In this document: piece by piece, positions 4,042 to 62,826 of the stretch
How the letters are laid out: every line of letters begins with the position of its first letter
Position numbering within the stretch: the stretch's first letter is position 1
Assembly: GCF_003671765.1 (NCBI RefSeq)
Contig: NZ_QPIB01000008.1
Coordinates: 186,001-250,000, forward strand
Origin: Xenophilus sp. E41
GTDB lineage: Bacteria > Pseudomonadota > Gammaproteobacteria > Burkholderiales > Burkholderiaceae_C
DNA: 64,000 nt
Reading direction: 5' to 3'
The notes under the pieces: generated by a model
The model's database searches: none
Told to the model about the DNA's origin: nothing
Seen by the model: the letters and a program-made list of their open reading frames with translations, nothing else
Program-made: the position numbers and the translations under genes

Positions 4042-4818
4042 TCAGGGTGCTACGGAATTGATAGCTGCCTGCGCACTGTCCACGGGGGCTTCAGGCCAAT
4101 CCGGCTCGGAAGATTCGTTGCTGGACACGCGGCCCGCCTCGATGGTGATGCGCCGCTCGCACTGGGCCGCGATGCCGCGGTCGTGCGTGACCAGCACGAG
4201 CGTGGTGCCCAGCTCGCGGTTGAGGTCGAACATCAGCCGCATCACCTGCTCGCCGGTGGCGAAGTCCAGGCTGCCGGTGGGCTCGTCGGCCAGCAGCAGC
4301 TGCGGCTGCACGACGAAGGCCCGCGCCAGCGCGACGCGCTGCTGCTCGCCGCCCGAGAGCACCTTGGGGTAGTGCGACAGGCGCTGGCCCAGGCCGACGC
4401 GGCCCAGCATCTCGGTGGCGGCCTTGCGCGCCGTTCGCTGCACCTCGGGGCGGTCGGACAGCTCCAGCGGCAGCATCACGTTCTCGAGCGCGGTGAGATT
4501 GCCGAGCAGCTGGAAACTCTGGAACACGAAACCGATCTGTCTGGCACGCAGCGCGGCGCGTTCGTCCTCGTCGATGGCGAAGAGGTCGTCGCCCGCGATG
4601 CGCACGGTGCCGCGCGAAGGGACGTCGAGGCCGGCCACGATGGACAGCAGCGTGCTCTTGCCGGAGCCCGAGGCGCCGACGATGGCGGCCGTTTCCCGCG
4701 CGCCGAGGGTGAAATCGATGTCGCGCAGAATGTCCAGCGTGCCCGCCGAATCGGTGACGGACTTGAACACATGCTCGACGCTGACGATCGGCGATGCGGA
4801 AGCGGGGCTCGAAGACAT
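4042..4818 (-). CDS. ybbA: ABC transporter ATP-binding protein, YbbA/LolD type
   Basis: A 258-residue ATPase with Walker [10 protein letters not shown] (48-56), signature [15 protein letters not shown] and Walker [13 protein letters not shown], all of the LolD/MacB/YbbA class. In E. coli, ybbA is divergent from tesA and followed by the large permease gene ybbP. Here the tesA divergence is kept, with only 24 bases between the start codons, but no permease gene follows; the next gene codes for the L7/L12-like protein. The start [10 protein letters not shown] follows a long shadow extension that overlaps tesA. The last 20 or so codons come from a dispersed repeat (4049-4110), which gives an unusual C-terminal tail. 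Confidence 0.88.
4049..4110. repeat. Dispersed Comamonadaceae-type repeat, copy 1 (inside the 3' end of ybbA)
   Basis: Begins GCTACGGAATTGATAGCTGC and ends near CAGGCCAATCCGG. It matches the copies at 8659, 26824, 34794 and 56290: a GCTAT-like/ATAGC dyad around GAATT, then a GC-rich middle, then a GCxxCAGGCC-type end. It encodes the C-terminal tail of the ybbA product. Confidence 0.7.
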
Positions 4819-4842
4819 GAAAGGATGCAAGTGATCGGCTGG

Positions 4843-5514
4843 ATGAATCGACGTGACTTTAGCCTGCGCAGCGCGCTTGCCGCGGTGGCGGCCGCCGCCG
4901 TGGGGTCTTCCGCCTGGGCGCAGGCCCCGGCGGCGCCCGCACCGGCGCGGCCGCTGGTCCTGGTGGTGGGCGACTCGTTGTCGGCCGAATACGGCCTCAA
5001 GCGCGGCGACGGCTGGGTGCCGCTGCTGCAGAAGCGCCTGGCCGAGCAGAAGGTGACGGCCGGCGTGGTCAACGCCAGCATCAGCGGCGACACCACCTCG
5101 GGCGGCCGCGCCCGGCTGCCGGGCCTGCTGGCGCAGCACAAGCCCGACATCGTGGTGCTCGAACTGGGCGCCAACGATGCGCTGCGCGGCCTGCCGCTGC
5201 CCAGCACCGAGGACAACCTGACGCAGATGGCCAGGGCCTCGCAGGCCGCGGGCGCCAAGGTGCTGCTGGTGGGCATCCAGGTGCCGCCCAACTACGGCAC
5301 CGACTACACGCGCCGCTTCGGCGAGGTGTTCCCGAAGGTGGCGGCGGCCACGAAATCGGCGCTGGTGCCCTTCCTGCTCAAGAACGTGGCGGACGCGCCC
5401 GACTCGGCGAACCTGTTCCAGGCCGACCGCATCCACCCGCTGGCGGTGGCGCAGCCGCGCATGCTGGACAACGTGTGGCCCGAGCTGCGCAAGCTGATCC
5501 AGAGCGCCCGCTGA
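4843..5514 (+). CDS. tesA: SGNH-hydrolase arylesterase / lysophospholipase L1 (TesA-like), exported
   Basis: A 223-residue GDSL hydrolase with block I GDSLS (Ser45), block II Gly in SGDTTSGG, block III GANDA (Asn111) and the ADRIHPLA block with Asp195 and His198. The residues for a Ser-Asp-His triad and oxyanion hole are all present. The N-terminus starts MNRRDFSLRSALAAVAAAA and ends SSAWAQA: a twin-arginine-type export signal (RRDFSL) with a signal peptidase site, so the enzyme probably acts in the periplasm. An ATG at 4825 is in frame; 4843 is preferred because the signal begins there, although neither has a good ribosome site. It is divergent from ybbA. Confidence 0.88.
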   Translation: MNRRDFSLRSALAAVAAAAVGSSAWAQAPAAPAPARPLVLVVGDSLSAEYGLKRGDGWVPLLQKRLAEQKVTAGVVNASISGDTTSGGRARLPGLLAQHKPDIVVLELGANDALRGLPLPSTEDNLTQMARASQAAGAKVLLVGIQVPPNYGTDYTRRFGEVFPKVAAATKSALVPFLLKNVADAPDSANLFQADRIHPLAVAQPRMLDNVWPELRKLIQSAR

Positions 5515-5541
5515 GCGCGTCGGGACGATTCACGGCGCTCC

Positions 5542-5578
5542 AAAAAAAGAACCGCTGCCGGCCTGGCCAGCAGCGGTT
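5542..5578 (-). terminator. Rho-independent terminator
   Basis: The stem AACCGCTGC (5550-5558) pairs with GCAGCGGTT (5570-5578). Read on the minus strand it is followed by a run of seven T. It ends the small leftward gene at 5624-5815 and probably also serves the convergent tesA. Confidence 0.8.
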
Positions 5579-5623
5579 GCATGTCTTTGCAGGCCGTACC
5601 CGGGGTGGACAGCCGTGCGGCGC

Positions 5624-5815: not shown

Positions 5816-5911
5816 TTTGGCTCCTGTGTCGATGTGCCCCGGGGTCGGGACCGCCCTGCGGTGCAATGTAAGCGATAAAACCGACACCGCCTACGCGATG
5901 CGGCGCGGCGT

Positions 5912-7105
5912 TCAGAGCCGCGCCAGCGCCTGCGCCAGGTCGGCGCGCAGGTCGTCCACATCCTCCAGCCCGATGGAAAAGCGCACCAGCGTGCCCTTGT
6001 GCGGCCAGCGCGCCACCGAGGCGTCGCGCATCAGGCCGATGTCGTAGGGCACCACGAGGCTGGTCGGGCCGCCCCAGGAATAGCCCAGCCGGAACAGCCG
6101 CAGGCTGTCGCAGAAACGGTCGACCGATTCGGTGCCGTAGCGCTCGTCGAAGACGATCGAGAACAGGCCGGCGGCCAGGTCGGCGGGGCCGCACAGCGCC
6201 TTCCAGTGCGCATGGCCCGGCGAGCCTTCCAGCGCCGGATGCAGCACCTGCGCCACCTCCTCGCGCTCCGCCAGCCAGTTCGCCAGCTCGCGCGCCGCGC
6301 GATCGTGCGCCGCGTAGCGCAGCGGCAGGCTGGGCAGGGAGCGCAACACCGTCTCGACGTCGTTCACGCCGATGCCGTAGCCCATGCGCATGTGGGTGAG
6401 CTTGAGCTTCAGGTGCAGCGCCGCATCGCGCGTGACCACGCTGCCCATCAGCACGTCGCCACCGCCGCTCGGGTACTTGGTCAGTGCATGCACCGAGATG
6501 TCCACGCCCTCCCCGCTGCCGGCCAGGTCGAAGGGATCGAAGGCGAGGCCTGCGCCCCAGGTGTTGTCCAGGGCCACCAGCACGCCGCGCGCGCGGCAGG
6601 CGGCGACCAGCGCACGCAGGTCGGGAAACTCCATGGTCACCGAACCGGGCGCCTCCACCCACACGAGGCGGGTGCGCTCGGAGATCCTGGCGGCCAGGTC
6701 GGCTGCATTCATCGCGTCGTAGAGCCGGTGCGTGATGCCGAAGCTGGCCAACTCGCCGGTGGCCAGCGCCTTGTTGGGGCCGTAGGCGTTGTCGGGGATG
6801 AGCACCTCGTCGCCGCGCTTGAGCAGCGCGAAGTCCGTCAGCGCGATCGAGGCGAGGCCGCTGGGCACCAGCAGGCACTCGGTACCGCCTTCCAGCGTGG
6901 CGAGGCGCTCCTCCAGCGTGAAGGTGGTGGGCGTGCCGTGCAGGCCGTAGGTGTAGCCGGCCTTGGTTCGCCAGTCCCGTGCCCGCATCGCCGCCACATC
7001 CTTGAAGAAGACGGTGGACGCCTTGAAGACGCCGGGCTGTGGGGCATCGAAGGTATCGGGTGGCGTGTAGGGGTGGTGGATCAGGTCGGTCGCAGGCTTG
7101 GTCAT
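5912..7105 (-). CDS. metC: Cystathionine beta-lyase / PLP-dependent Cys-Met metabolism enzyme
   Basis: A 397-residue fold-type I PLP enzyme of the Cys/Met metabolism family. The cofactor Lys is K210 in HALTKYPSGGG, the pyridine-N Asp is D180 in VALDNTW, and YTYGLHGTPT matches the subunit-contact Tyr region. These features fit cystathionine beta-lyase, which splits cystathionine into homocysteine, pyruvate and ammonia in methionine synthesis. Related gamma-synthases and lyases share the fold, so substrate is inferred from overall similarity. It stands alone on this strand, convergent with nothing and divergent from the hydrolase gene at 7175. Confidence 0.82.
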   Translation of the reverse strand: MTKPATDLIHHPYTPPDTFDAPQPGVFKASTVFFKDVAAMRARDWRTKAGYTYGLHGTPTTFTLEERLATLEGGTECLLVPSGLASIALTDFALLKRGDEVLIPDNAYGPNKALATGELASFGITHRLYDAMNAADLAARISERTRLVWVEAPGSVTMEFPDLRALVAACRARGVLVALDNTWGAGLAFDPFDLAGSGEGVDISVHALTKYPSGGGDVLMGSVVTRDAALHLKLKLTHMRMGYGIGVNDVETVLRSLPSLPLRYAAHDRAARELANWLAEREEVAQVLHPALEGSPGHAHWKALCGPADLAAGLFSIVFDERYGTESVDRFCDSLRLFRLGYSWGGPTSLVVPYDIGLMRDASVARWPHKGTLVRFSIGLEDVDDLRADLAQALARL

Positions 7106-7174
7106 GCGGCCATCCTAGCCCGGATGCGGCGCGACTTCGGCCGCTGCGGCGATGCGGCGCGGCACAATGGACGG

Positions 7175-8105: not shown

Positions 8106-8125
8106 ATCGTCGGCGAAAGGTGGCT

Positions 8126-8658: not shown

Positions 8659-8718
8659 TGCTCCTGATTTGATAGCTGGTGGCGCAGGTGGGGTGGGCGT
8701 TTCAGGCCGATCTGACTT
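8659..8718. repeat. Dispersed repeat, copy 2 (intergenic)
   Basis: TGCTCCTGATTTGATAGCTG, then GGCGCAGG, then GGGCGTTTCAGGCCGATCTG. The same succession of blocks is seen at 4049-4110. It lies in the leader of the phosphoribosyltransferase gene. Confidence 0.7.
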
Positions 8719-8731
8719 CAAAAACCGGACC

Positions 8732-8843
8732 TCCGTACGCGAAGGGCGCGAAAGTTGCGCGAAGGACGCGAAGAAATCAGGAATAAAAATTTCGGCTGTT
8801 CTTTCGCGACCTTCGCGCAATCTTCGCGCCCTTCGCGTACGGA
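8732..8843. repeat. 112-bp near-perfect inverted repeat
   Basis: Arms 8732-8772 and 8803-8843 are each 41 bases. Both begin TCCGTACGCGAAGGGCGCGA when read inward and pair with only three mismatches. The 30-base loop is AT-rich. The arms contain several GCGAAGG units. The element starts 9 bases beyond the purA stop, with no T tract, so it looks like a mobile palindromic unit or an mRNA-stabilising hairpin more than a terminator. Confidence 0.85.
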
Positions 8844-8852
8844 TGTCCGCAT

Positions 8853-17187: not shown

Positions 17188-18342
17188 CTATTCGGGCCGG
17201 TAGCCGAAGACCCCGCCGTTGCGGGTCACGACCACCACGGTGTTGGCGGCCAGCACCGGCGCGGCCGCGATGGCCGAGCCATCGGGTGCCAGGCGGTTGA
17301 GCGGCGAGCCATCCTCGCGCGACAGGAAGTGCACGGTGCCGGTGTCTTCGCCGACCACGAGCGTGCGACCCACGGCCAGCGGCGCGGTGAGCGTGCGCAG
17401 GCGCAGCCGGTCGGAGGTCCACATCACGTTGCCGTCGGTGCGGCGCCAGGCGACCACGCTGCCGTTCGAATCGGTGCCGTACACCGCGCGCTCGTCGCCG
17501 CCCACGCCTTCGGCGCCGACGGAGGGCTTGTTCCACAGCAGCGTGCCGCGGGTGGTGTCGACGCAGCCGACGGCCGCGTAGTAGGCGCGCGCGCAGACGG
17601 TCTCGCCGACACGGCTCACGGTGCCGGTCAGGTCGACCAGGCGCTCGACGTCGTTGGTGCCACGGGGCGAGGCGATGGGGACTTCCCAGCGCGAGACGCC
17701 GTTGTTCGGGTTCATGCCCACCATGCGCGCGCCCACGCCGGCGACCAGGGTGTCGCCGATCGGGAACATCACGCCGGGCTTGCGCAGCACCAGCGCGTCG
17801 CCGGCGGCACGGGTCTGGGTCCAGAGGCGGCGGCCGCTCTGCCCGTCGAAGGCGGTGGTGCTGCGGTCGGCGGTCTGTGCGAACACGCGGCGGCCGGCCA
17901 CCAGCGGCGCGGTGTAGGTTTCGGCAGGCAGGCGCTCCTTCCAGAGCACCTTGCCGCCCTGCAGGGCCACCAGTTCGTTGTTGGCCGTGACCACCGCGGC
18001 CAGCGAACCGTCGCTGCCGACGCCGGCGATCAGGGGCGCGCCCACGCTGGCGCGCCACTGCTCGGCGCCGGTGCGGGCATCGATCGCCACCACGGTGCCG
18101 TCGGCCGCGGCCACCGTGACGGTGTCGCCACTGACCGCCGTCTGCAGCGGGAAGGCCACCGAGGGCAGCTTGGCGGTCCAGGCCTGGCGAACGCCCATCA
18201 AGGCGTTGTTGGGCGGCAGTTCGGCCGGCTTGGGCTTGGCCGTGCCCGAGCAGGCCGCGATGCTGGCGGCGACCGCTATCAAAACCATAGCTGCTCCCGC
18301 ACGAAGGACGGGCGCTGGAGCACTAAAACGCTTGAAATTCAT
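17188..18342 (-). CDS. bamB: Outer membrane protein assembly factor BamB (lipoprotein)
   Basis: A 384-residue lipoprotein: a signal sequence with lipobox IAAC (Cys31), then an eight-bladed beta-propeller made of PQQ-like repeats (AIDARTGAEQWR, ALQGGKVLWKE, AFDGQSGRRLWTQ, CVDTTRGTLLWN). BamB scaffolds BamA in the machine that inserts outer-membrane beta-barrels; bamD lies in the same window. Part of the signal-peptide coding sequence is a copy of the dispersed repeat (18275-18333). It follows the yfgM-like gene by 11 bases in the conserved hisS-yfgM-bamB-der order. Confidence 0.95.
   Translation of the reverse strand: MNFKRFSAPAPVLRAGAAMVLIAVAASIAACSGTAKPKPAELPPNNALMGVRQAWTAKLPSVAFPLQTAVSGDTVTVAAADGTVVAIDARTGAEQWRASVGAPLIAGVGSDGSLAAVVTANNELVALQGGKVLWKERLPAETYTAPLVAGRRVFAQTADRSTTAFDGQSGRRLWTQTRAAGDALVLRKPGVMFPIGDTLVAGVGARMVGMNPNNGVSRWEVPIASPRGTNDVERLVDLTGTVSRVGETVCARAYYAAVGCVDTTRGTLLWNKPSVGAEGVGGDERAVYGTDSNGSVVAWRRTDGNVMWTSDRLRLRTLTAPLAVGRTLVVGEDTGTVHFLSREDGSPLNRLAPDGSAIAAAPVLAANTVVVVTRNGGVFGYRPE
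18275..18333. repeat. Dispersed repeat, copy 3 (inside the bamB signal sequence)
   Basis: GCTATCAAAACCATAGCTGC, then TCCCGCACG, then GGGCGCTGGAGCACTAAAAC. It keeps the GCTAT/ATAGC dyad and the GCGCTGGAG-type second half but has AAAACC in place of GAATT. It encodes part of the BamB hydrophobic signal. Confidence 0.6.
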
Positions 18343-25280: not shown

Positions 25281-26936
25281 TCAGCGCGGACGTGAACGCC
25301 GGCCGCGGCCACCGCCGCCGCCCGGGGCGCCGCCACCGCCACCGCCACCACCGCCGGAGCCGCCGCCGCGACGAGGATCCTTGCGCTGGCGCGAGAAGCT
25401 GTCGGCCCCGATGTAGCCGAAGGAGGTCTTCATCGGGTCGGGCTGCCCGCCCCCTGCCCCGCCGCCGGCCTTGGGACCGCGGTCGTTGCCGCGCTTCTTC
25501 CTGCCGCCGGGGCCGCCGGCGTTGCCGCCCTGCGGGTTGCCACGGGTGGCGAGGGGGTTCGGCTGGCGCGGGCCGTTGCCCCCACCACCGCCACCGCCGG
25601 CGCCCTTGTTCGCGCCGCCGCGGCGGCGCTTCTTGCCACGGTCGCTGGCGCCGCGGCCGGGCCCGTCCTCGCGCTGGCGCGGCGCCGGCATGTCGGCACC
25701 GGCCGCCTGCGTGAGGGCGCGGATGTCGCGCTCGTCCAGCTCCAGCCAGGCGCCGCGCCGCAGGCCGCGCGGCAGCACCATGGCGCCGTAGCGGATGCGG
25801 ATCAGGCGGCTCACGGCATGGCCGACGGCCTCGAACAGGCGGCGCACCTCGCGGTTGCGGCCCTCCGAGATGGTCACGCGGTACCACTGGTTCGAACCCT
25901 CGCCACCGCCATCCTCGATGGTGCCGAACTGCGCCATGCCATCGTCGAGCCGCACGCCGTCGAGCAGGCGCTGCTTCTCCTCGTTGCTCAGCGCGCCGAG
26001 CACGCGCACGGCGTACTCGCGCTCCAGCCCGAATCGCGGGTGCATGAGCCGGTTGGCCAGCTCGCCCGAGCTGGTGAAGAGCAGCAGGCCTTCGGTGTTC
26101 AGGTCGAGCCGTCCGACCGACTGCCACTTGCCCTGCACCAGGCGCGGCAGCTTGCGGAAGACCGTGGGGCGATTCTGCGGATCGTCGTGCGTGACCACCT
26201 CGCCCACCGGCTTGTGGTACGCGATGACGCGCGGCGGCGGGGGCGCGATGCGGTAGCGGATCGGCTTGCCGTTGACCTTGACCTGGTCACCGTACTGGAT
26301 GCGCTGGCCGATGTGCGCCGGTTCGTTGTTGACGGAGATGCGGCCCTCGAGGATCAGGCGCTCCATCTCCAGGCGCGATCCGAGCCCGGCCTGGGCCAGC
26401 ACCTTGTGCAGCTTGGGCGCATCGGCCTGCGGCAGCAGCACGCGCTTGAGCGGCGCCACGTCGGGGCTGGTCTCGTCGGCATCGAACTGGCCAGAGACGA
26501 CGTCGGCGAACTGGATCGGCTCCGGCGGCGGCGCGTTGCGCTGTTCGCGCTCGGCAGCGCGGCGGGCGCGGTCGAACTCGTCCTCGTCTTCGTCGTCCTC
26601 GTCGTCCTCTTCTTCCTCGGCCTCATCGTCGCCGTCCAGGACGGCACCGTTGTCGCTGGGCACGGGCGCCGCAGGAGACGTCGGGGGCTCGGCAACAGCA
26701 GGCGCGGCGACCGGCTCGGGTGCGGCAACGGGCTCGGCGTCAGCGGCAGCCGCCGACGCATCGGCGGCCTCCGCCTTGGGCTTGCGCGGACGACGCTTGC
26801 GGGCCGGCGCCACCGCCCCGTCTGCTATGGATTCGGTAGCGGTCTGCGCAGGCTGGACGGGGGCTGCGGCCACTTTTTCTTCTGACTCCGCAGGCGCACC
26901 GGAGGGGGGGACGTCGTCGTGGTCGGGTGCGCTCAT
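25281..26936 (-). CDS. rluB: Ribosomal large subunit pseudouridine synthase B-type (RluB) with long disordered ends
   Basis: A 551-residue pseudouridine synthase of the RsuA/RluB/E/F family; E. coli RluB has about 290. An N-terminal tail of about 170 residues is Ala/Pro-rich and then strongly acidic (about 101-122). It is followed by the S4 domain (about 175-225), the catalytic domain with [10 protein letters not shown] (Asp278) and a C-terminal tail of about 150 residues rich in Gly, Arg and Lys. It acts on 23S rRNA, probably U2605. Residues 21-40 come from a dispersed repeat copy. Its ATG overlaps the scpB stop (ATGA). Confidence 0.92.
26824..26890. repeat. Dispersed repeat, copy 4 (in frame near the 5' end of rluB)
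   Basis: GCTATGGATTCGGTAGCGGT, then CTGCGCAGG, then GGGGGCTGCGGCCACTTTTT. The block order matches copy 1 closely. In the rluB frame it encodes a [17 protein letters not shown]-type peptide, like those in the ybbA tail and the aceF linker. Confidence 0.72.
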
Positions 26937-34793: not shown

Positions 34794-34854
34794 GCTATGA
34801 ATTCATAGCTGCACGCGCCCGTTGGGCGGGCGCTGCAGCCCGATTTCACTCGAA
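34794..34854. repeat. Dispersed repeat, copy 5 (intergenic, best palindrome)
   Basis: It contains the perfect palindrome CTATGAATTCATAG (34795-34808) followed by GCGCCCGTTGGGCGGGCGC, which can fold as a second hairpin, then TGCAGCCCGATTTCA. It lies between lpdA and zapE and may be the cleanest reference copy of the family. Confidence 0.75.
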
Positions 34855-34871
34855 TCCCGCCGACACGCCGA

Positions 34872-40571: not shown

Positions 40572-40825
40572 GTTCCGCTGACCTCCGCTTCCCTGAAGGA
40601 AGCATTAGCTGGTTTGAAAACCTTCCGCGACACGGCTGAACCGATTGGCGGATGCGACTGTGGCTGGGGAAGGGCCTGAGTACCATCGCATTGTGCCACG
40701 TCAAGCATGTGACGCCGGACGGCGCCCAATACAAGTGTCGGCAGTGCAGTCATCCGCGCGTGCAGAAATCGACCATTCTTGGCATGCCGGACCGGCGCGG
40801 CAACCGGGATGACCCGGCCCGCCTT

Positions 40826-42739
40826 TCAACCCGCCGCCACGGCGGTGCGCACGGCCTGCAGCGTGGCGGGGTCGTCGAGCGTGGTCAGGTCGCCCGGGTC
40901 GCGCTGCTCGCACACGGCCTGGATGGCGCGGCGCAGCAGCTTGCCGCTGCGCGTCTTGGGCAGGCCGGGCACGAAGCGCACGCGCGCCGGCCGCGCCAGC
41001 GCACCGAGGTCGTCGGCCACCCGCTTCATGATCTCGCCCTCGAGCTTCATCGCCTCGGCGCTGTCGGTCGCAGCGTTGCCCGTCCTGGGCACCACGAAGG
41101 CCATCGCGACCTGCCCCTTGAGCGCATCGGCGACGCCCACCACCGCGACCTCGGCCACGTTGGCATGGCCGGAGATGGCCTCCTCGATCTCGCGCGTGCC
41201 CAGGCGGTGGCCGGCGACGTTGATCACGTCATCGGTGCGCCCGAGGATGTAGTAGTAGCCCTCCACGTCGCGGATGCCCCAGTCGAAGGTGGAGTACACG
41301 AGCTTGCCGGGGATGCTCTTCCAGTAGGTGTTGACGAAGCGCTCGTCGTCGCGCCACACGGTCTGCATGAAGCCCGGTGGCGTCGGTCCTTCGATCACGA
41401 CCACGCCCTTCTCGTTGGGCGCCGTGAGTTCCTCGCCCGTGGTCTCGTGCACGATCTTCACCTTGTAGCCGTACATCGCGATGCCCGGGCTGCCGAACTT
41501 CGCCGGCCGACGCTCCACGCCGCTGGGCAGCGTGATGATCGGCCAGCCCGATTCGGTCTGCCAGTAGTTGTCGATGATCGGCACGCCCAGGCCCTCGCTG
41601 ATCCACCGGGCCGTGGGTTCGTCCAGCGGCTCACCGGCCAGGAAGAGCGCGCGCAGGCTCGACAGGTCGTACTTCCTGAGCAATGCCGGGTCCTGCTTCT
41701 TGAGCACGCGCACGGCCGTGGGCGCGCTGAACATCACTGTCACCTTGTACTTCTCGACCAGGCGCCACCAGATGCCGCCATCCGGCTGGCGGTCCATGCC
41801 CTGCGTGGGCAGACCCTCGTACATGATCGTGGCCATGCCGGCGATCAGCGGCCCATAGACGATGTAGCTGTGGCCGACGACCCAGCCGATGTCGCTGGTG
41901 GAAAAGTACGTCTCACCGGCTCGGCCATCGAAGATGTGCCGCATGCTGGCCGCCAGCGCGACCGCGTAGCCGCCCACGTCGCGCTGCACGCCCTTGGGCT
42001 TGCCGGTGGTGCCGCTGGTGTAGATGGTGTAGCTGATATCGGTCGCATTTAGCCAGGTACACGGCACCTGCGTTTGGGCATGGTTTTGGCCTGCAGCGGC
42101 CGCCAGATGGTCGCGACCCGCTACCAATTCCATAGCAGCGAGGCCCCGGTCGTACAGCAGCACCGCCGCCGGCTTGTGGGCCGACAGGCGGATCGCCTCG
42201 TCCAGCAGCGGCTTGTACGGCACCACCTTGCCGCCGCGCGAGCCCGCGTCGGCGCTGACGACCACCTTCGGCTGCGCGTCCTCGATGCGCGAGGCCAGCG
42301 AGCCGCTGGCGAAGCCGCCGAACACCACGCAGTGGATGGCGCCGATGCGTGCGCAGGCCAGCATCGCGAAGGCGGCCTGCGCGATCATGGGCATGTAGAT
42401 GAGCACGCGGTCGCCGCGCTGCACGCCCAGTTCGATCAGCATCGCCGCCGTGCGCTGCACCTCGGCGTGCAGTTCGCGAAAGGTATAGCTGCGCTCGCTG
42501 CCCGTCTCGGTCGAGATCGCGATGAGCGCCGGCTGCTCGCCGCGCTGGGCCAGGTGCCGGTCGACCGCGTTGTGGCACAGGTTGGTCTGGCCGCCCACGA
42601 ACCAGCGGCAGAACGGCGGCCGGCTGGCGTCCAGGATCTGCGTCGGCGCCTGGTGCCAGTCGATCAGGCGGGCCTGCTCGGCCCAGAAGGCTTCGGGATG
42701 CTCCAGGGAGCGGCGGTGGAATTCGGCGTAGCTGGACAT
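40826..42739 (-). CDS. prpE: Propionyl-CoA synthetase (acetyl-CoA synthetase-like)
   Basis: A 637-residue adenylate-forming CoA ligase. YTIYTSGTTGKPKGVQRD is the phosphate loop, and TRSGKLLRR carries the acylation-sensitive Lys near the C-terminus. DAGSRGGKVVPYKPLLDEA resembles PrpE more than Acs. It activates propionate to propionyl-CoA, feeding the methylcitrate cycle, whose genes are not here. Just before the phosphate loop, the segment AAMELVAGRDHLAAAAGQ is encoded by a dispersed repeat copy (42083-42138) and looks like an in-frame insertion. The ATG follows an AGGAGAC site. Confidence 0.9.
   Translation of the reverse strand: MSSYAEFHRRSLEHPEAFWAEQARLIDWHQAPTQILDASRPPFCRWFVGGQTNLCHNAVDRHLAQRGEQPALIAISTETGSERSYTFRELHAEVQRTAAMLIELGVQRGDRVLIYMPMIAQAAFAMLACARIGAIHCVVFGGFASGSLASRIEDAQPKVVVSADAGSRGGKVVPYKPLLDEAIRLSAHKPAAVLLYDRGLAAMELVAGRDHLAAAAGQNHAQTQVPCTWLNATDISYTIYTSGTTGKPKGVQRDVGGYAVALAASMRHIFDGRAGETYFSTSDIGWVVGHSYIVYGPLIAGMATIMYEGLPTQGMDRQPDGGIWWRLVEKYKVTVMFSAPTAVRVLKKQDPALLRKYDLSSLRALFLAGEPLDEPTARWISEGLGVPIIDNYWQTESGWPIITLPSGVERRPAKFGSPGIAMYGYKVKIVHETTGEELTAPNEKGVVVIEGPTPPGFMQTVWRDDERFVNTYWKSIPGKLVYSTFDWGIRDVEGYYYILGRTDDVINVAGHRLGTREIEEAISGHANVAEVAVVGVADALKGQVAMAFVVPRTGNAATDSAEAMKLEGEIMKRVADDLGALARPARVRFVPGLPKTRSGKLLRRAIQAVCEQRDPGDLTTLDDPATLQAVRTAVAAG
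42083..42138. repeat. Dispersed repeat, copy 6 (in frame inside prpE, opposite orientation)
   Basis: Read on the minus strand: GCTATGGAATTGGTAGC, then a GGTCGCGACC palindrome, then GCTGCAGGCCAAAAC. The outer blocks match copy 1, but the orientation on the chromosome is reversed. Confidence 0.65.
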
Positions 42740-42851
42740 GCGGTCTCCTGTCGTTCTTGTGGCGCGCCAGCCCGCGGCTGCGATGCGCGCGGGCATCGTG
42801 AGTGGCGGCGCTTTCGCGAAGCTGACGTGCCGTCCCGCGCGTCCTGCGCTC

Positions 42852-43622
42852 TCAGGACACGTCGAGACGCCGCGCGTTGGGCGGGATGAAGGATTCGAAG
42901 AAGTACAGCGGTTCGCGCCCCGCCATCGCCCCGCTCTCCAGCAGCATGCCGAGCGAACCGGCCTGCACGCCGACCGCAGCGGCTGCTTCGGCCGACAGCG
43001 CCACGAAGGCCACGCGCTGCGACACCTCGGTCACCGGCATGCTGCTTTCGCTGCCGAGCATCTGCTTCAGGTTGGCGCCGTCCAGCGCGGCCAGGGGCGC
43101 CGACGCAAGGCCGGGAAACGCCCGGGCGCTGAAGTAGAGGCGGTTGAACACGTCGAATTCGCCATTGACGCTGATGCGGCGCGAAATGCGCACCACCTCG
43201 CCGTCGGCGGGATGCAGCCAGTCGGACCAGGGCCCCGGCTCGGCCACGCGCTGGCGGTCGAGCATCTTCGGATACAGCGGCAGGAAGGCCGGCTCGTCCT
43301 CGCGTCCCAGAAAGCGCAGATGCAGCGGCGCATCGATCGCACCGCGGCCCTCGGCCACGTAAGTGCCGCTGCCGTGGGTGCGAACCACGACGCCCTCGTC
43401 CGCCAATTCGCGCAGCGCCCGCTGCACCGTGCCCAGGCTGTAGTTCGTCATCCGGGCAAGCTCGCGCTCAGCCGGCAGTTGGCTGCCGGGCTTCCAGTGG
43501 CCGCCGCGGATGGCTGACGCCAGGGTGGCACGCAGCTGCGCGTACTTCGCCAGGCCCGGAGCCGGAGGCTGGGTGAAGGGAGCGAGCGGGTCGTCGGTGG
43601 AGGGGGCGAGGCGTGCGTTCAT
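42852..43622 (-). CDS. GntR-family transcriptional regulator (HutC/UTRA type)
   Basis: A 256-residue repressor-type protein with an N-terminal winged helix (about 25-90; ELARMTNYSLGTVQRAL, then VVRTHGSGTYVA) and a C-terminal UTRA ligand domain (about 100-250). HutC-type GntR proteins usually sense a pathway metabolite and repress nearby catabolic genes. It is divergent from a Bug/TctC-type gene, and two inverted repeats overlap the facing promoter (43657-43699), so it probably controls that cluster. The effector is unknown. Confidence 0.88.
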   Translation of the reverse strand: MNARLAPSTDDPLAPFTQPPAPGLAKYAQLRATLASAIRGGHWKPGSQLPAERELARMTNYSLGTVQRALRELADEGVVVRTHGSGTYVAEGRGAIDAPLHLRFLGREDEPAFLPLYPKMLDRQRVAEPGPWSDWLHPADGEVVRISRRISVNGEFDVFNRLYFSARAFPGLASAPLAALDGANLKQMLGSESSMPVTEVSQRVAFVALSAEAAAAVGVQAGSLGMLLESGAMAGREPLYFFESFIPPNARRLDVS

Positions 43623-52366: not shown

Positions 52367-52383
52367 GTTCGAGCTTCAGAATG

Positions 52384-52415
52384 AAAAAGCCGCGCAACCC
52401 GCATCGGGATTGCGC
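52384..52415 (-). terminator. Rho-independent terminator of the pyruvate dehydrogenase operon
   Basis: On the minus strand GCGCAATCCCG-N4-CGGGTTGCGC makes a long stem (52392-52415), followed by GGC and TTTTT. It lies about 36 bases after the lpdA stop. Confidence 0.87.
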
Positions 52416-52450
52416 AGCCAGCTATCGAAAGAATAGCAGCCCAGGGCGCG

Positions 52451-54289
52451 TCAGCCGGCTTTCTTCTGCGGCGGCAGATCGGTACAGGTGCCGTGCGCCA
52501 CTTCGGCCGCCATGCCGATCGATTCGCCGAGCGTGGGGTGCGGGTGGATGGTCTTGCCGATGTCGATCTCGTCGGCGCCCATCTCGATGGCCAGCGCGAT
52601 CTCGCCGATCATGTCGCCGGCATGCGTGCCGACGATGCCGCCGCCCAGGATGCGGTGCGTCTCGGCGTCGAACAGCAGCTTGGTGAAGCCCTCGTCGCGC
52701 GTGTTGGCAATGGCACGGCCCGACGCCGTCCAGGGGAAGTGGCCCTTCTTGACCTTGATGCCCTCGGCCTTGGCCTGGTCCTCGGTCAGGCCCACCCACG
52801 CCACTTCGGGGTCGGTGTAGGCCACGCTGGGGATCACGCGGGCGTTGAAGGCGGCTGCCGCCAGCTCCTTGTTGCCCTGCTGCTCGCCGGCGATGACCTC
52901 GGCCGCGACGTGCGCCTCGTGCACCGCCTTGTGGGCCAGCATGGGCTGGCCGACGATGTCGCCGATGGCGAAGATGTTCGGCACGTTGGTGCGCATCTGG
53001 ATGTCGACCGGGATGAAGCCGCGGTCGCTCACCGTGACGCCGGCCTTGTCGGCGCCGATTTTCTTGCCGTTGGGGCTGCGGCCCACGGCCTGCAGCACGA
53101 GGTCGTAGACCTGCGGCTCCTTGGGTGCGTTGGCGCCCTCGAACATGACCTTGATGCCGTCCTTGGTCGCCTCGGCGCCGACGGTCTTGGTGGCGGTCAT
53201 GATGTTGTCGAAGCGCGGGGCGTTCATCTTCTGCCAGACCCTCACCAGGTCGCGGTCGGCGCCCTGCATGAGGCCATCGAGCATCTCGACCACGTCCAGG
53301 CGCGCGCCGAGCGTGGAATACACCGTGCCCATTTCCAGGCCGATGATGCCGCCGCCGAGGATCAGCATGCGCTTGGGGTCGGTCCCCAGCTCCAGCGCGC
53401 CGGTCGAGTCCACCACGCGGGGGTCGTCCTTGGGCATGAAGGGCAGGCTGACGGCCTGCGACCCGGCCGCGATGATGGCGTTGCGGAACTTGACGACCTT
53501 CTTGCTGCCGGTCGTTTCCGAGCCGCTGCCGGTGGTCTCGTCGACCTCGAGGTGGTAGGCATCGAGGAAGGTGCCCAGGCCGCGCACGGTGGTTACCTTG
53601 CGCATCTTCGCCATCGCGGTGAGCCCGCCGGTGAGCTTGCCCACGACCTTGTTCTTGTGCGCGAGCAGCTTGGCGCGGTCGATCTTGGGCGCGCCGAACT
53701 CGACGCCCAGGTCGGCGAAATGCTTGACCTCGTCCATCACGGCGGCGACGTGCAGCAGCGCCTTGGACGGGATGCAGCCCACGTTCAGGCAGACGCCACC
53801 GAGCGTAGCGTAGCGCTCGACCAGCACCGTCTTCATGCCCAGGTCGGCCGAGCGGAAGGCGGCCGAATAGCCGCCCGGGCCGGCGCCCAGCACCAGCGTG
53901 TCGCACTCGATGTCGACCTTGCCGGTGTAGGTGGATGCTGCGGATTTGATCGCCGGCGCCGCAGACGGGGCGGGCGCCGGCGCCGCTTTTGGCGCAGCAG
54001 CCGCAGGGGCCGGCGCCGCGGCCGGCGCGGGCGCAGGTGCCGCCGCGCTTTCGGTCGCCTCCACGGTCAGCACCACCGAGCCTTCGCTCACCTTGTCGCC
54101 GACCTTCACGGCCACCGACTTGACCACGCCGGCGTGGCTCGACGGGATCTCCATCGAGGCCTTGTCGGACTCGACGGTGATGAGCGACTGCTCGACCTTG
54201 ATCGTGTCGCCGGGCTTGACCAGCACCTCGATCACCGCGACTTCGCTGAAATCGCCGATGTCCGGCACCTTGACTTGTTGTTCGCTCAT
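52451..54289 (-). CDS. lpdA: Dihydrolipoamide dehydrogenase with N-terminal lipoyl domain (E3 of pyruvate dehydrogenase)
   Basis: A 612-residue E3. Residues 1-80 form a lipoyl domain with Lys43 in [13 protein letters not shown], identical in that motif to both lipoyl domains of the aceF product. An Ala/Pro linker follows, then the FAD domain ([17 protein letters not shown]), redox disulfide ([13 protein letters not shown]) and C-terminal His (HPHPTLGES). Lipoyl-fused E3 is known in some beta-proteobacteria and Neisseria. It is the last gene of the operon; a second E3 gene without a lipoyl domain serves 2-oxoglutarate dehydrogenase. Confidence 0.95.
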
Positions 54290-54950: not shown

Positions 54951-56636
54951 TCAGAGGACGATGCGGCGGTAGTCCGCCAGCAGCTGGCCCAGGAACGCGT
55001 TGAAACGCGCGGCCGCGGCGCCATCGATGACGCGGTGGTCGTACGACAGCGACAGCGGCAGCACCAGGCGCGGCACGAACTGCTTGCCGTCCCACACCGG
55101 CTTCATCTGGCCCTTCGACAGGCCCAGGATGGCGACTTCGGGTGCGTTGATGATCGGCGTGAAGTGCGTGCCGCCGATACCGCCCAGCGAGCTGATCGAG
55201 AAGCAGCCGCCCTGCATGTCGGCCGAGCCGAGCTTGCCGTCGCGCGCCTTCTTGGCGAGCTCGCCCATCTCCTGGCTGATCTGGATGATGCCCTTCTTGT
55301 CCGCGTCCTTGAGCACCGGCACCACCAGGCCGTTGGGCGTGTCCGCCGCGAAGCCGATGTTGAAGTACTGCTTGTAGACGAGCGTGTCGCCGTCCAGGCT
55401 GGTGTTGAACTCGGGGAATTTCTTCAGTGCCGCGACCACCGCCTTGATGACGAAGGCCAGCATGGTCACCTTGACGCCCGACTTCTCGTTCTCCTTGTTG
55501 GTGGAGACGCGGAAGGCCTCCAGCTCGGTGATGTCGGCCTCGTCGTTGTTGGTGACGTGCGGGATCATCACCCAGTTGCGGTGCAGGTTGGCGCCGCTGA
55601 GCTTCTTGATGCGCGAGAGGTCCTTGCGCTCCACCGTGCCGAACTTGGTGAAGTCCACCTTCGGCCAGGGAATGAGGCCCAGCGCCGCGCCGTCGGCGCC
55701 GCCACCGCCGGCCGGCGCCTTGGCAGCCGAGGCCCTGGTCTGCGTGGCGCCGCTCATCACGGCCTTGGTGAAGGCCTGGACGTCGGCTTCGGTGATGCGG
55801 CCCTTGGGACCGGAACCCTTGACCTCTTCCAGCGGCACGCCGAGCTCGCGCGCGAACTTGCGCACCGAGGGCGAGGCATGCGGCAGGCTGCCGGTGGGCG
55901 CCTTGGTCGGGTCGTGCGCGGGTGCGGCCGCCGCGGGCGCCGCAGCAGCGGGCGCGGGTGCGGGCGACGTGGCCGATGCGACGGGCGCAGGCGCCGCGGC
56001 GGCGGCAGCTGCCGGCGCCGGTGCGGGCGCTGCCGAGCCCCCTGCCCCTTCGAGCACGGCGATCAGGTCGCCGATGTTGACCGTGTCGCCGACCTTGACC
56101 TTCAGCTCCTTGAGCGTGCCGGCCGCGGACGACGGGATCTCCATCGACGCCTTGTCCGACTCGACGGTGATGAGCGACTGCTCTTCCTTGATGGTGTCGC
56201 CGGGCTTGACGAGGACCTCGATCACGGCGACGTCCTTGAAGTCGCCGATGTCGGGCACCTTGACCTCGACCGGGCCGACAGCAGCGCTTGCTCCTGAATT
56301 CGTAGCAGGCTGCGCAGGCGCAGCGGGCGCTGCAGCCGCTTTCGGCTCGGAAGCCGGTGCCGCCGCAGGGGCCGGTGCGGGTGCCGCGGCGCCCGCCCCT
56401 TCGGCCTCGAGGACCAGCACGACCGAGCCCTCGCTCACCTTCGAGCCGACGTCGACCTTCAGTTCCTTCACCACGCCGGCGGCGGACGACGGAATCTCCA
56501 TCGAGGCCTTGTCCGACTCGACCGTGATCAGCGACTGTTCGGCCTTGACCGTGTCGCCCACCTTCACCAGCACCTCGATCACCGCGACTTCGTCGAAATC
56601 GCCGATGTCCGGCACCTTCACTTCAATGGCTGCCAT
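54951..56636 (-). CDS. aceF: Pyruvate dehydrogenase E2 (dihydrolipoamide acetyltransferase)
   Basis: A 561-residue E2 with two lipoyl domains (Lys43 and Lys162, both in [13 protein letters not shown]), Ala/Pro linkers, a subunit-binding domain ([20 protein letters not shown]) and a catalytic domain ending [15 protein letters not shown]. It passes acetyl groups from E1 to CoA. The linker between the two lipoyl domains (residues 97-116) is encoded by a dispersed repeat copy. The stop lies 22 bases from the HslV-like gene, so cotranscription is expected. Confidence 0.96.
56290..56352. repeat. Dispersed repeat, copy 7 (in frame in the aceF interlipoyl linker)
   Basis: TGCTCCTGAATTCGTAGCAG, then GCTGCGCAGG, then GCGGGCGCTGCAGCCGCTTT. 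The block order matches copies 1, 2 and 4. In frame it gives [16 protein letters not shown], similar to the rluB and ybbA repeat-coded peptides. Confidence 0.7.
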
Positions 56637-59587: not shown

Positions 59588-62128
59588 ATGTCCGTCCCCA
59601 GCCTGCCCGTCACCCGCGATGCGGTCCCCGCTTCGCCCTTGTCGTGGTGGCGCAGGTGGTGGCGCCGGCAGACGCCGGTGATCCAGGACAGCGTCGCCAT
59701 GCTGATGCCCCTGGTGGCGGTTCTGCTGTTCCTCGCCGCGCTGGTGGCGGCGTTCTATTACCTGCGCGCCGAGGAAATGGAACGCGAGCAGGAATCCGTG
59801 AAGCGCGACGTCGAATACGCGCAGCAGCGCCTTCGCCTGCGCCTGCTCGAGCGGCAGGAACAGCTGATGCGCCTGGCGCGCGATGCCGGCAACCGCGAGA
59901 TCGACCCCAACGAGTTCGCCAGCCGCGCCGAGTCGCTGGTGAGCCAGTACCCCGAGCTCCAGGTGATCAGCTGGATCGACGACCGCCGTGCCGTACGTGC
60001 CAGCTATGCGGCGCCCAGCGTCCACCCCTCGCAACAGCATCCGCAGGGCGAAGTCCTGCGCCCCGGCGAGATCGAGAGCAACTACGCGCTCGCGCGCGAG
60101 CTGCGCCAGCCGGTGTTCTCGCAGCCGGGCGCCGGCCGCGAGCCGCCCTCCATGCTGCAACTGCACATCCCCCTGTACGACCAGGGGCTGTTCGCGGGGG
60201 TAGTGCTTGGCGAGTTCTCCATCGACGGCCTGCTGCGCTACGGCGTGCCGCCGGAGGTGTCGGCCCGCTACGCGGTGGCCCTGCTCGACGGCAAGGACGG
60301 CCTGCTGGCCGGCAACACCGTGAATCCGCGCGACGGCGCGGCGGTGCGCCTGCTGCCGTGGGCGGAACACACCAACCAGTTCGAAGTGCCCGTCTCCCCG
60401 GTGGGCAACGGGCTGGTGCTGCGCGCGCAGGCGTACCGCACCTCGCAGGGCTTGGTCGGCAATGGCCTGTTCTGGCTGGTCGCGGCGCTCAGCGTGCTCA
60501 CGAGCTGGACGCTGATCGGCATGTGGGGCCACACCCGCCGCCGGCTGGCGGCGCAGCAGGCGCTGGTGGCCGAGACCAACTTCCGGCGCGCCATGGAGAA
60601 CTCGATGCTCACCGGCATGCGGGTGCTCGACCTCTCGGGGCGCATCACCTATGTGAATGCCGCCTTCTGCGCGATGACCGGCTGGAGCGAGCAGGAACTG
60701 GTCGGCCAGACGCCGCCCTTCCCCTACTGGCTCGAAGCCGACCACGAGATCATGAGCGAGCGGCTCGAGGAAGAAATCCACGGCCGGTCGCTGCCTGGCG
60801 GCTTCCAGGTGCGCGTCAAGCGCAAGAACGGCAGCGTCTTCAACGCCCGCCTGTACGTCTCGCCGCTGATCGATGCGCACGGCCACCAGGCCGGCTGGAT
60901 GACCTCGATGACCGACATCACCGAGCCCACCCGCATCCGCGAGCAGCTGTCGGCCTCGTACGAGCGCTTCACCACCGTGCTCGAAGCCCTCGATGCCTCG
61001 GTGTCGGTCGCGCCGCTGGGCAGCCAGGAACTGCTGTTCGCCAACAAGATGTACCGCTCCTGGTTCGGCTCCGACACCGAAGGGCACCTCGACATGGTGG
61101 CGCAGGCGGGCGTGCCGAACACGCCGGCGCAGGACTCCGCCTTCGACGACGTCGACGCGCTGGCCGGACTTCCGGTGGACACGCTCACCGCCGCGCAGGC
61201 GGCCAACAACGAGATCTTCCTGCCCGAATTGGGCAAATGGCTGGAGGTGCGCTCGCGCTACCTCACCTGGGTCGACGGCCGTCTGGCGCAACTGGTGATC
61301 GCCACCGACATCACGCCGCGCCGCGACGCCGAGGAGCAGGCCGCTGCCCAGGCCGACAAGGCCCAGGCCGCCAGCCGCCTGATCACCATGGGCGAGATGG
61401 CCTCCAGCGTGGCGCACGAGCTCAACCAGCCGCTGACGGCCATCAGCAACTACTGCAACGGGATGGCCTCGCGCATCCGCAGCCACCAGATCGACGAGGA
61501 GGCGCTGCTGGCCGCGCTGGACAAGACCTCCAAGCAGGCGCAGCGCGCGGGCCAGATCATCCAGCGCATCCGCACCTTCGTGAAGCGCAGCGAGCCCAAC
61601 CGCACGCCGGCCGAGGTGTCGACGATGGTGAGCGAGGCCGTCGAGCTGGCCGGCATCGAGCTGCGCCGGCGCAACGTGCGCCTGAACCACTACGTCGCCG
61701 CGCGCCTGCCCATCCTGCGCGTGGACCGCATCCTGATCGAGCAGGTGCTGGTCAACCTGATGAAGAACGCGGCCGAGTCGATCGACCTGGCCGACCGGCC
61801 GGTGGCGCGCCGCAGCGTGGAGCTGCGGGTGGTGCCGAAGGTGGTCGATGGCCACAACGCCGTCGAGTTCTCGGTCCAGGACACAGGCATGGGCCTGGCA
61901 CCGGAGGTCATGGAGCGGCTGTACGAGGCCTTCTTCTCCACCAAGCCCGAGGGCATGGGCATCGGGCTCAACCTGTGCCGGACGATCGTGGAATCCCACC
62001 GCGGCCGGATGCAGGCGGAGAACCTCTACAATGGTCCGGATGTGGTCGGATGCCGTTTTTCCTTCTGGATTCCGGTGTCCGGCGCTATCGATTCCGTAGC
62101 AAGCGACGAGGCAAAGGTACCTGCATGA
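59588..62128 (+). CDS. PAS-domain sensor histidine kinase with periplasmic sensor (DctB/FixL-like)
   Basis: An 846-residue kinase with membrane span 1 (about 37-58), a periplasmic region of about 240 residues resembling a double-Cache sensor, span 2 (about 298-316), a PAS domain (ENSMLTGMRVLDLSGRITYV) and a possible second one. These lead to the HisKA box SVAHELNQPLTAISNYC with phospho-acceptor His610 and the ATPase domain (N box LVNLMKNAAESI, G boxes DTGMGLAP and GMGIGLNLC). ATG 59588 is preferred over TTG 59558. Its stop overlaps the response-regulator start (ATGA). It is divergent from aceE, which suggests control of pyruvate metabolism. Confidence 0.9.
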   Translation: MSVPSLPVTRDAVPASPLSWWRRWWRRQTPVIQDSVAMLMPLVAVLLFLAALVAAFYYLRAEEMEREQESVKRDVEYAQQRLRLRLLERQEQLMRLARDAGNREIDPNEFASRAESLVSQYPELQVISWIDDRRAVRASYAAPSVHPSQQHPQGEVLRPGEIESNYALARELRQPVFSQPGAGREPPSMLQLHIPLYDQGLFAGVVLGEFSIDGLLRYGVPPEVSARYAVALLDGKDGLLAGNTVNPRDGAAVRLLPWAEHTNQFEVPVSPVGNGLVLRAQAYRTSQGLVGNGLFWLVAALSVLTSWTLIGMWGHTRRRLAAQQALVAETNFRRAMENSMLTGMRVLDLSGRITYVNAAFCAMTGWSEQELVGQTPPFPYWLEADHEIMSERLEEEIHGRSLPGGFQVRVKRKNGSVFNARLYVSPLIDAHGHQAGWMTSMTDITEPTRIREQLSASYERFTTVLEALDASVSVAPLGSQELLFANKMYRSWFGSDTEGHLDMVAQAGVPNTPAQDSAFDDVDALAGLPVDTLTAAQAANNEIFLPELGKWLEVRSRYLTWVDGRLAQLVIATDITPRRDAEEQAAAQADKAQAASRLITMGEMASSVAHELNQPLTAISNYCNGMASRIRSHQIDEEALLAALDKTSKQAQRAGQIIQRIRTFVKRSEPNRTPAEVSTMVSEAVELAGIELRRRNVRLNHYVAARLPILRVDRILIEQVLVNLMKNAAESIDLADRPVARRSVELRVVPKVVDGHNAVEFSVQDTGMGLAPEVMERLYEAFFSTKPEGMGIGLNLCRTIVESHRGRMQAENLYNGPDVVGCRFSFWIPVSGAIDSVASDEAKVPA

Positions 62129-62769
62129 GTTTGATCCCCAAGAAAGGCACGGTCTATGTGGTGGATGACGACGAAGCGGTGCGCGACTCGCTGCAATGGC
62201 TGCTCGAAGGCAAGGACTACCGCGTCCGCTGCTTCGATTCCGCCGAGTCCTTCCTGTCCCGCTACGACCCGCGCGAAGTCGCCTGCCTGATCGTCGACAT
62301 CCGCATGGGCGGCATGACCGGCCTGGAACTGCAGGACAAGCTCATCGAGCGCAAGTCCCCCCTGCCGATCGTGGTCATCACCGGCCACGGTGACGTGCCG
62401 ATGGCGGTCGACTCGATGAAGAAGGGCGCCATGGACTTCATCCAGAAGCCCTTCAACGAGGAGGCCCTGGTCACGCTCGTCGAACGCATGCTCGACCATG
62501 CCCGCAGCGCTTTCGCGCAGCACCAGCAGTCGGCCAGCCGCGATGCGCTGCTGTCCAAGCTCACCGGCCGCGAGGCGCAGGTGCTCGAGCGCATCGTCGC
62601 CGGTCGCCTGAACAAGCAGATCGCCGACGACCTGGGCATCAGCATCAAGACGGTGGAGGCGCACCGCGCCAACATCATGGAAAAGCTCAACGCCAACACC
62701 GTGGCCGACCTGCTGAAGATCGCGCTGGGCCAGACGCCCGCCCCTGCTGCCAAGGCCGCGACACCCTGA
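62125..62769 (+). CDS. FixJ/NarL-family response regulator
   Basis: A 214-residue regulator. The receiver domain (1-125) has the acidic pair in VVDDDEAV, phospho-acceptor Asp58 (CLIVDIRMGG) and Lys108 (FIQKPF). The C-terminal LuxR-type helix-turn-helix is LTGREAQVLERIVAGRLNKQ, then SIKTVEAHRANIMEKL. The ATG overlaps the kinase stop by four bases, so the pair is one coupled two-component system. DNA targets unknown; the divergent aceE operon is the first candidate. Confidence 0.93.
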   Translation: MSLIPKKGTVYVVDDDEAVRDSLQWLLEGKDYRVRCFDSAESFLSRYDPREVACLIVDIRMGGMTGLELQDKLIERKSPLPIVVITGHGDVPMAVDSMKKGAMDFIQKPFNEEALVTLVERMLDHARSAFAQHQQSASRDALLSKLTGREAQVLERIVAGRLNKQIADDLGISIKTVEAHRANIMEKLNANTVADLLKIALGQTPAPAAKAATP

Positions 62770-62770
62770 C

Positions 62771-62826
62771 GCTACACATTTCATAGCTACGAGCGCCCGC
62801 CCCACCTGCGTGAGCGGGCGTTTTCA
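62771..62826 (+). terminator. Terminator made from dispersed repeat copy 8
   Basis: GCTACACATTTCATAGCTAC carries the repeat dyad, then CGCCCGC (62794-62800) pairs with GCGGGCG (62814-62820) and is followed by TTTTC. It lies between the response regulator and folD and looks like a repeat copy that works as a rho-independent terminator. Confidence 0.75.

Follow-up and report, generated by a model that had tools for sequence, protein, structure and literature searches.

A dispersed 64-bp motif of Xenophilus sp. E41, possibly written into resident DNA rather than inserted

We analyzed a dispersed, partly palindromic repeat in a 64,000-nucleotide stretch of the Xenophilus sp. E41 genome (the window; positions 186,001 to 250,000 of contig NZ_QPIB01000008.1), which we tentatively read as a motif written into resident DNA. 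The window's own genome (G000; 5.84 Mb in 47 contigs) was compared with other genomes, designated by other G numbers. Copies were scored with a covariance model (R1), built from 30 G000 copies including the window copy at 4049, and with a 64-column weight matrix trained on 76 G000 copies, those of the window included; copies in the congeners G002 and G013 are independent of this training. The window contains the following matches:

4049–4112, plus strand: motif copy (R1 66.1 bits; matrix 62.3 bits)
8660–8723, plus strand: motif copy (R1 47.8 bits; matrix 67.5 bits)
18275–18338, plus strand: motif copy (R1 46.2 bits)
26824–26887, plus strand: motif copy (R1 52.0 bits), with orthologues in G012 and G013 and a relic in G008
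34794–34857, plus strand: motif copy, apparently intergenic (R1 65.7 bits)
42073–42136, minus strand: motif copy in an acetyl-CoA synthetase-like coding sequence (open frame 40829–43030, minus strand; R1 31.7 bits)
52374–52437, minus strand: motif copy (R1 24.3 bits, E 1.2e-4; matrix 53.9 bits)
53937–54000, plus strand: weak motif copy (R1 20.4 bits, E 0.0013; matrix 30.9 bits)
56290–56353, plus strand: motif copy in an Ala-rich linker region (R1 47.9 bits)
62085–62105, minus-strand match: bare dyad, a doubtful partial core (R1 21.3 bits, E 7e-4; below 12 bits with the matrix)
62771–62834, plus strand: motif copy with a terminator-like hairpin (R1 30.5 bits)

A first-pass annotation, made from the letters of the window, had listed eight copies with a common block order. 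All eight are real (R1 30.5–66.1 bits; E 1.7e-15 to 2.9e-6) and their blocks make up one element; the coordinates were accurate to about one base, and the copy described as inverted, at 42083, is inverted. Two further copies, at 52374–52437 and 53937–54000, had been missed; the G002 orthologue of the weak copy 53937 scores 52.1 bits. The strand opposite copy 18275 reads as a lipoprotein signal peptide, and the dyad of copy 34794 has one base fewer than in its orthologues. Adjoining copy 8660 is an inverted repeat (8726–8849) with 47-bp arms that are 91% complementary.

The unit consists of a dyad (GCTAYNNANTNNRTAGC), a GC hairpin, and an end block (GATTTGGCTNGAAA). Its size is 63–64 bp as judged from 30 genome-wide copies, in which information climbs steeply at GCTA and drops past GAAA without gaps. 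The matrix spans 64 columns with 55.7 bits, and its consensus is GCTATCGAATTGATAGC TGCTC GCGCCCG-CCGGG-CGGGCGC TGCAGGCC GATTTGGCTCGAAA. An RTAG tetranucleotide occupies motif positions 13–16, and six bases separate it from the hairpin stem, which begins at position 23.

With up to two mismatches allowed, the pattern GCTAYNNANTNNNTAGCTGCNNGCGC matches 177 + 173 = 350 times on the two strands of the 5.84 Mb genome; read backwards as a reversed control, it matches 0 + 0 times in the same 5.84 Mb. Scanning 304 kb of G000 with the matrix gives 40 places that exceed 15 bits. On the same 304 kb reversed its maximum is 0.2 bits, so that none exceeds 12 bits, and in 520 kb of the congeners G004, G003, and G005 its maxima are −3.8, −0.3, and 7.5 bits, with zero places above 15 bits. 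Against these controls, the possibility that the repeat is a chance resemblance or a codon-usage artefact of GC-rich DNA, for which we found no supporting point, is negligible. Since 114 places exceed 12 bits in a 1.104-Mb sample of G000, scaling up suggests ~600 copies genome-wide. The first-pass proposal of a dispersed palindromic repeat, to be found in hundreds of copies by a genome-wide scan set against chance, is borne out by these counts. Apparent head-only copies are mostly the dyad read on the opposite strand, or copies with a one-base indel.

For comparisons within the genome we kept 81 of 94 matches, dropping 13 that were weak or on the opposite strand. Copies occur in both coding and noncoding DNA, as the first-pass annotation had noted, the acs-like, hscA, and folP copies being coding examples. 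The 47 of the 81 that lie mainly between genes, set against 15% noncoding DNA, indicate an enrichment that is far from exclusive, in counts that are rough because our home-made gene caller often takes the wrong strand in GC-rich DNA.

Four of 13 congeners carry the repeat, with 375–471 pattern matches in G002, G012, and G013 and 51 in G008. Counts in the remaining nine are 0–4 each (reversed control, 0–2 per strand), G004 and G005 having 2 and 4 genome-wide. One match in each of these two looks genuine by eye, in L076 (G005) and L080 (G004) from position 1501, perhaps on acquired DNA. Among 200 genomes of the family, our own included, 61 have a match at one mismatch and 40 have at least 8 matches.

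The 304 kb around the window was compared with stretches of seven congeners, among which the outgroups G003, G004, and G005 have no copy in the stretches read. Nine of the 39 G000 copies above 30 bits in these 304 kb lie at loci alignable with G003, G004, or G005, and the length of G000 differs there from that of the outgroups as follows:

hscA copy: 0/0 bp
acs-like copy (42073–42136): 0/0/0 bp
copy 18275: +9 bp versus G004, +14 bp versus G003, −3 bp versus G005
copy 34794: 26/3/16 bp
weak copy 53937: −9/−9/9 bp
copy 56290: 27/15/15 bp, longer in G000 than in any of the three outgroups, all multiples of three
copy 62771: −28/−4/3 bp
one larger-gain locus: 46/87/92 bp
copy 8660: G003, G004, and G005 are 156–169 bp shorter, and a second large palindrome adjoins the copy

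The difference is within −28 to +27 bp at seven of the nine loci and larger at two. Because seven of nine testable loci are near length-neutral, insertion of 64 bp is not the rule. Target-site duplications, which the first-pass annotation had proposed to look for, were not seen at the loci aligned. That annotation had suggested a miniature inverted-repeat transposable element (MITE) or a unit like the repetitive extragenic palindromic (REP) sequences. The dispersed palindrome and a candidate transposase gene (see below) speak for this suggestion, but the near length-neutrality without duplications does not. In particular, a MITE needs insertion, so the same seven loci weaken that identity. The repeat is like MITEs in being short, noncoding, dispersed, and internally symmetric; unlike them, it shows no target-site duplication and no clean insertion at most testable sites, and no matching transposon ends are known.

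The coding loci are consistent with change in place. The hscA stretch measures 1086 bp in G000; 12 of 13 congeners, whether rich in the repeat or not, have this same length, and G003 has 1089 bp. The folP gene, for which the letters were read in G000 (motif) and G008 (relic or none) only, has no net indel relative to nine of nine congeners having 0–4 matches, and the three solved dihydropteroate synthase sequences shown align without gaps across the motif. The acetyl-CoA synthetases shown have no insertion at the position of the acs-like motif, and near the position of the hscA motif the Hsp70 structures shown differ by two residues. The acs peptide is altered in place, reading RALAPMELTADRDHL in G005, RGLAPMELTAGRDHL in G008, and RGLAAMELVAGRDHL in G000. 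At copy 62771, G003 and G004 have the stem but without the dyad, only the dyad head being new; judged from these outgroups, the terminator-like stem predates the motif. By eye, the two copies at L002 1501–1564 and L024 1501–1564 (the same place as L318 9313) read in frame like secretory signal peptides, for example NAIKLIAACAVLAGAGAAFAQ, so that the motif apparently doubles as coding sequence there.

Most copies share their positions among G000, G002, G012, and G013. At the segments orthologous to G000 copies, scores exceed 40 bits in 17 of 17 cases for G002, 3 of 3 for G012, and 14 of 15 for G013, with none at background. The picture in G008 suggests decay: for 34 G000 copies, one segment is missing, nine score below 0, 15 at 0–20, seven at 20–40, and two above 40 bits. 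High-information columns diverge by 7.7% and low-information columns by 14.4% among the four species (36 pairs), as against 28.3% and 18.7% in comparisons with G008 (24 pairs), the pairs in each set sharing loci. The elements differ by 25% in G008 versus 13% in G013, two genomes that are equally distant from G000 at the fastest codon position (15.3% and 15.6%, respectively). The informative columns of the motif are constrained in the four species, and this constraint appears to be lost in G008. There, divergence is greatest at columns with an A/T consensus (35.7%), whereas those with G/C (19.3%) resemble the flanks (17.6%), a pattern that decay without constraint would give in GC-rich DNA. Rates compared between consensus and non-consensus bases are confounded by recent mutation and carry no weight here. 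At two genes G008 also lacks consensus bases that no outgroup has and shares the outgroup's base (acs, 7 of 10; hscA, 4 of 6), differences that fit a later, stepwise gain.

The stepwise pattern bears on the manner of writing. In templated overwriting, a single-stranded element, for example one excised by a transposase, would anneal at the replication fork and replace ~64 bases at once. Copies are nearly always full-length, few being partial, and the variable columns differ from the outgroups by 48–55% versus 26–34% in the flanks (two aligned segments per outgroup), both of which suit such a process. Set against it are the acs and hscA bases just described, which stepwise gain fits, and copy 62771, where only the dyad was added beside a pre-existing terminator-like hairpin. 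We know of no precedent for this mechanism and regard it as quite improbable; one-step overwriting nevertheless keeps some room because the motif is long and partial copies are scarce.

The copies evolve independently of one another. Orthologues are 87% identical and paralogues 60%, a contrast on which correction between copies was rejected, and among 3240 pairs of the 81 G000 copies two exceed 80% identity and none exceeds 82%. Close neighbors are rare: 800 kb of G000 contain no pair within 1 kb and four within 2 kb, where random positions taken from called spacers and coding sequence predict 5.7 and 11.7 (P 0.002 and 0.003). The other 304 kb of G000 contain one pair 942 bp apart, and no pair lies within 500 bp in 1.1 Mb. 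The coefficient of variation of the overall spacing in G000 is not below random. Replication-strand bias, a mark of single-strand transposition, was considered separately; the 150 copies on the one contig of G028, a genome of another genus, show none.

Spacing, constraint, and shared positions would also suit a chromosome-organising or regulatory site, in which a DNA-binding protein of the host would require a site roughly every 10 kb, each built and kept by natural selection; the coincidence of window copies 62771 and 52374 with terminator-like hairpins points the same way. Selection would, however, have to override the choice of amino acids in acs and hscA, nine of 13 congeners live with 0–4 matches, and no binding protein is known. 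We consider this explanation unlikely.

The hairpin has dialects, reading GCGCTTG...CAAGCGC in other genera. Among 89 copies from eight other genera, pairs 27–37 and 28–36 are Watson-Crick in 49 and 50 copies, as against 38.9 and 37.5 after shuffling, and 11 and 3 of 1000 shuffles reach these counts; among all 170 copies the pairs form in 83 and 87, which 0 of 1000 shuffles reach, in shuffles that ignore the relatedness of the copies. A hand-picked set of 79 copies, which omits 22 of the 89 from other genera, has 64 double-change cells versus 35 shuffled, but is biased toward the hairpin and is not relied on. Within G000, the 81 copies show no covariation worth mention, pairs 27–37 and 28–36 included. 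The paired covariation that the first-pass annotation had asked for is thus found between genera but not within the genome. A structural RNA was rejected, there being no compensatory changes among the G000 copies, and the repeat is unmatched in Rfam at gathering thresholds.

A REP-associated tyrosine transposase (RAYT), also named in the first-pass annotation, has a candidate in the genome: G000 has one Y1_Tnp (PF01797) gene of RAYT type, at G000:C32:153596-154288, upstream of what we take to be gltB. Of the 40 repeat-rich genomes, 39 carry a strong homologue (E ≤ 1e-95), as do 60 of 160 others; with ten query-close genomes omitted, the counts are 30 of 31 and 59 of 159, respectively, over genomes that are related and not independent. 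The gene is there, as anticipated, but its presence does not predict the repeat. Because strong homologues also occur in the 60 other genomes, RAYT is insufficient as an explanation: it may be needed, yet it fails to explain the repeat. In every one of the 15 aligned genomes that bear the repeat, the HUH and tyrosine motifs are intact. Catalytic residues are lost in G005, G020, and G035, which are repeat-free, and kept in most other repeat-free genomes. Loss or death of RAYT, considered as the cause of repeat loss, fits these three and does not fit G008 or many others. On a tree, the repeat-bearing RAYTs cluster (6 changes versus 12.5 shuffled). Copies or relics adjoin the RAYT gene at five of 34 loci, two strongly and three weakly (E 0.004–0.18); four of the five cases are seemingly one orthologous place in four congeners, and the five probably represent two events. 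Y1_Tnp genes as such are present in 195 of the 200 family genomes, also without the repeat, and a few of them lack catalytic residues.

Much of this would be accounted for by an old REP/RAYT system, in which an HUH endonuclease once spread a 64-bp hairpin element whose ancient copies are now decaying. The single Y1_Tnp gene with its catalytic motifs intact wherever the repeat was aligned and broken in G005, G020, and G035, the near-universal strong homologue in repeat-rich genomes, the clustering on the tree, the RTAG six bases ahead of the hairpin, the copies beside the gene, the covariation between genera, and, at some loci, whole-element presence or absence and close groups in G028 (both detailed below) all favor it. 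Length-neutral copies within conserved genes, the lack of near-identical copies among the 81, the missing close neighbors in G000, the strong RAYTs that 60 of 160 genomes have without repeats, and a RAYT in G008 that is intact though its copies decay argue the other way, and we hold this origin to be somewhat unlikely.

Comparison with known REPs is similarly divided. The repeat is like GTAG-family REPs with RAYT (TnpA-REP) in its palindromic unit, the RTAG upstream of the hairpin, the high copy number, and the co-occurrence with a single-copy, RAYT-type HUH/Y1 protein. REPs of the GTAG type are palindromes of 20–60 nt after a GTAG-like tetranucleotide, as against a 64-bp unit with RTAG six bases off the stem. 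The GTAG beside the hairpin is described as crucial for E. coli TnpA-REP and less so for others in a passage of PMC8266576. Passages of PMC3116915 and PMC3733652 describe REPs as mainly extragenic and often in doublets, with three 16-mers reaching about a thousand exact copies, and in P. fluorescens 14 of 1067 REP 16-mers overlap genes (a passage of PMC3116915). Unlike REPs, the present repeat has length-neutral copies in conserved genes and a loose tie to the presence of RAYT, lacks near-identical copies and doublets (81 copies compared; G000 stretches read), and is not mostly extragenic in the way of REPs (47 of 81 mainly between genes).

We therefore return to the reading introduced at the outset. 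It is possible, and we tentatively favor it, that the repeat is a genome-wide, signal-like 64-bp motif that was written by replacement into resident DNA and then kept, and not an inserting mobile unit. That it constitutes a new type of repeat, multiplying by overwriting DNA of equal length and altering amino acids of conserved genes, with each site kept independently, is doubtful. A sequence-specific reader would favor alleles that match the motif, and homologous recombination would then accumulate and maintain these alleles, by a route analogous to the biased DNA uptake proposed for the uptake sequences of Neisseria and Haemophilus. One candidate for the reader would be an uptake receptor; another would be the single RAYT-type HUH protein, which would be predicted to recognize the hairpin in single-stranded form. 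By this analogy, reader-driven accumulation through recombination is the favored mechanism, with uptake as its likeliest route.

The repeat appears closer to DNA uptake sequences than to a transposon, though it is much longer than they are. Like the DNA uptake sequences (DUS) of Neisseriaceae and the uptake signal sequences (USS) of Pasteurellaceae, it has copies by the hundred that occupy both strands and lie in coding as well as noncoding DNA; few close neighbors (in G000) and positions mostly conserved between species; an origin in pre-existing sequence without insertion, as suggested by seven of nine loci and by acs, hscA, and folP; and dialects between genera with patchy loss. DNA uptake sequences reportedly have dialects too. 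Unlike DUS and USS, with their 9–12 bp core, the present motif is 64 bp long with two symmetric parts and shows few partial matches. We know of no uptake motif from Comamonadaceae. For uptake sequences, a passage of PMC1939737 describes a proposed origin in existing sequence, not insertion, and even spacing, and according to a passage of PMC2397512 many recent uptake sequences face sequence without resemblance.

A number of observations weigh against the motif having been written in place by a reader of this kind. The two larger length differences listed above are joined by three further loci, viewed from G013 or G002 copies, that differ by −35, −13, and +154 bp. G008 is short of 69 and 90 bp at two loci, which amounts to presence or absence of a whole element, and at four loci with a copy in G002 or G013 it is G000 that is short, by 61–124 bp. 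Of these four gaps, one is a deletion, with a relic persisting in G008; at another, that of the G002 copy at 78462, G004 is also short, by 154 bp, which could reflect an insertion. The evidence from coding DNA consists of three genes plus linkers and signal peptides. The in-place claim leans mainly on a few coding loci, and intergenic copies, taken by themselves, would be explained equally well by an ancient insertion whose outgroup counterparts have decayed. Of the 150 best matches in G028, three stand in line 165–168 bp apart (G028:C1:1018044-1018446) and two lie 126 bp apart at 3560417–3560612. Known uptake motifs are several times shorter. We infer the writing step from outgroups, because no birth of a copy was caught. 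Finally, intermediate scores are scarce, three of the 114 places in G000 lying between 12 and 25 bits, and this weighs against a gradual drive because such a drive should produce intermediates.

The repeat also occurs on plasmids. Sixteen plasmid records match; four of them are from Diaphorobacter or Comamonas, which supports the link to Comamonadaceae that the first-pass annotation had suggested. A catabolic plasmid of Pseudomonas and integron cassettes from enterobacteria are among the remaining records. In L371 (NZ_KY913898.1), positions 1201–1253, a copy overlaps a DUF1010 gene between resistance cassettes of a class 1 integron. Similar matches lie under DUF1010 genes on several other plasmids and suggest that the DUF1010 cassette derived from a repeat-bearing host. 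No open-access paper was found that contains the motif sequence or treats uptake sequences in Comamonadaceae, in a search with subscription papers outside its range, nor any on Acidovorax with a palindromic and intergenic repeat or a RAYT; among the papers listed, no title or abstract opening concerned the present repeat. The GTAG/CGTC catalogue (PMC3733652) names none of five Comamonadaceae genera, nor the betaproteobacteria, in its main text, and the HuH survey (PMC6006769) has none of the six terms tried in its own.

A second dispersed family has the same GC hairpin, but a GTGACGAATTCGGTCAC-type dyad and a GATTGCAC end. Its members include:

L146 15107–15178, plus strand
L163 ~6094–6157, plus strand
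L170 13457–13524
G000:C11 ~202190

Elsewhere in the window, a SucA RNA motif (RF01070; 87.9 bits) lies at 40576–40657 on the minus strand, and three 220-bp direct repeats, 77–83% identical, lie at 54057–54276, 56047–56266, and 56404–56623. The direct repeats are presumably lipoyl-type domains.

If writing in place is correct, a dispersed repeat would no longer be equivalent to transposition. The genus would then offer a natural experiment, with congeners that have 350–471 matches, one that has 51, mostly decayed, and nine that have 0–4. The spread and persistence of long motifs, and whether uptake signalling exists in these bacteria, would become testable, as would the role of RAYT-type proteins in genomes without this repeat.

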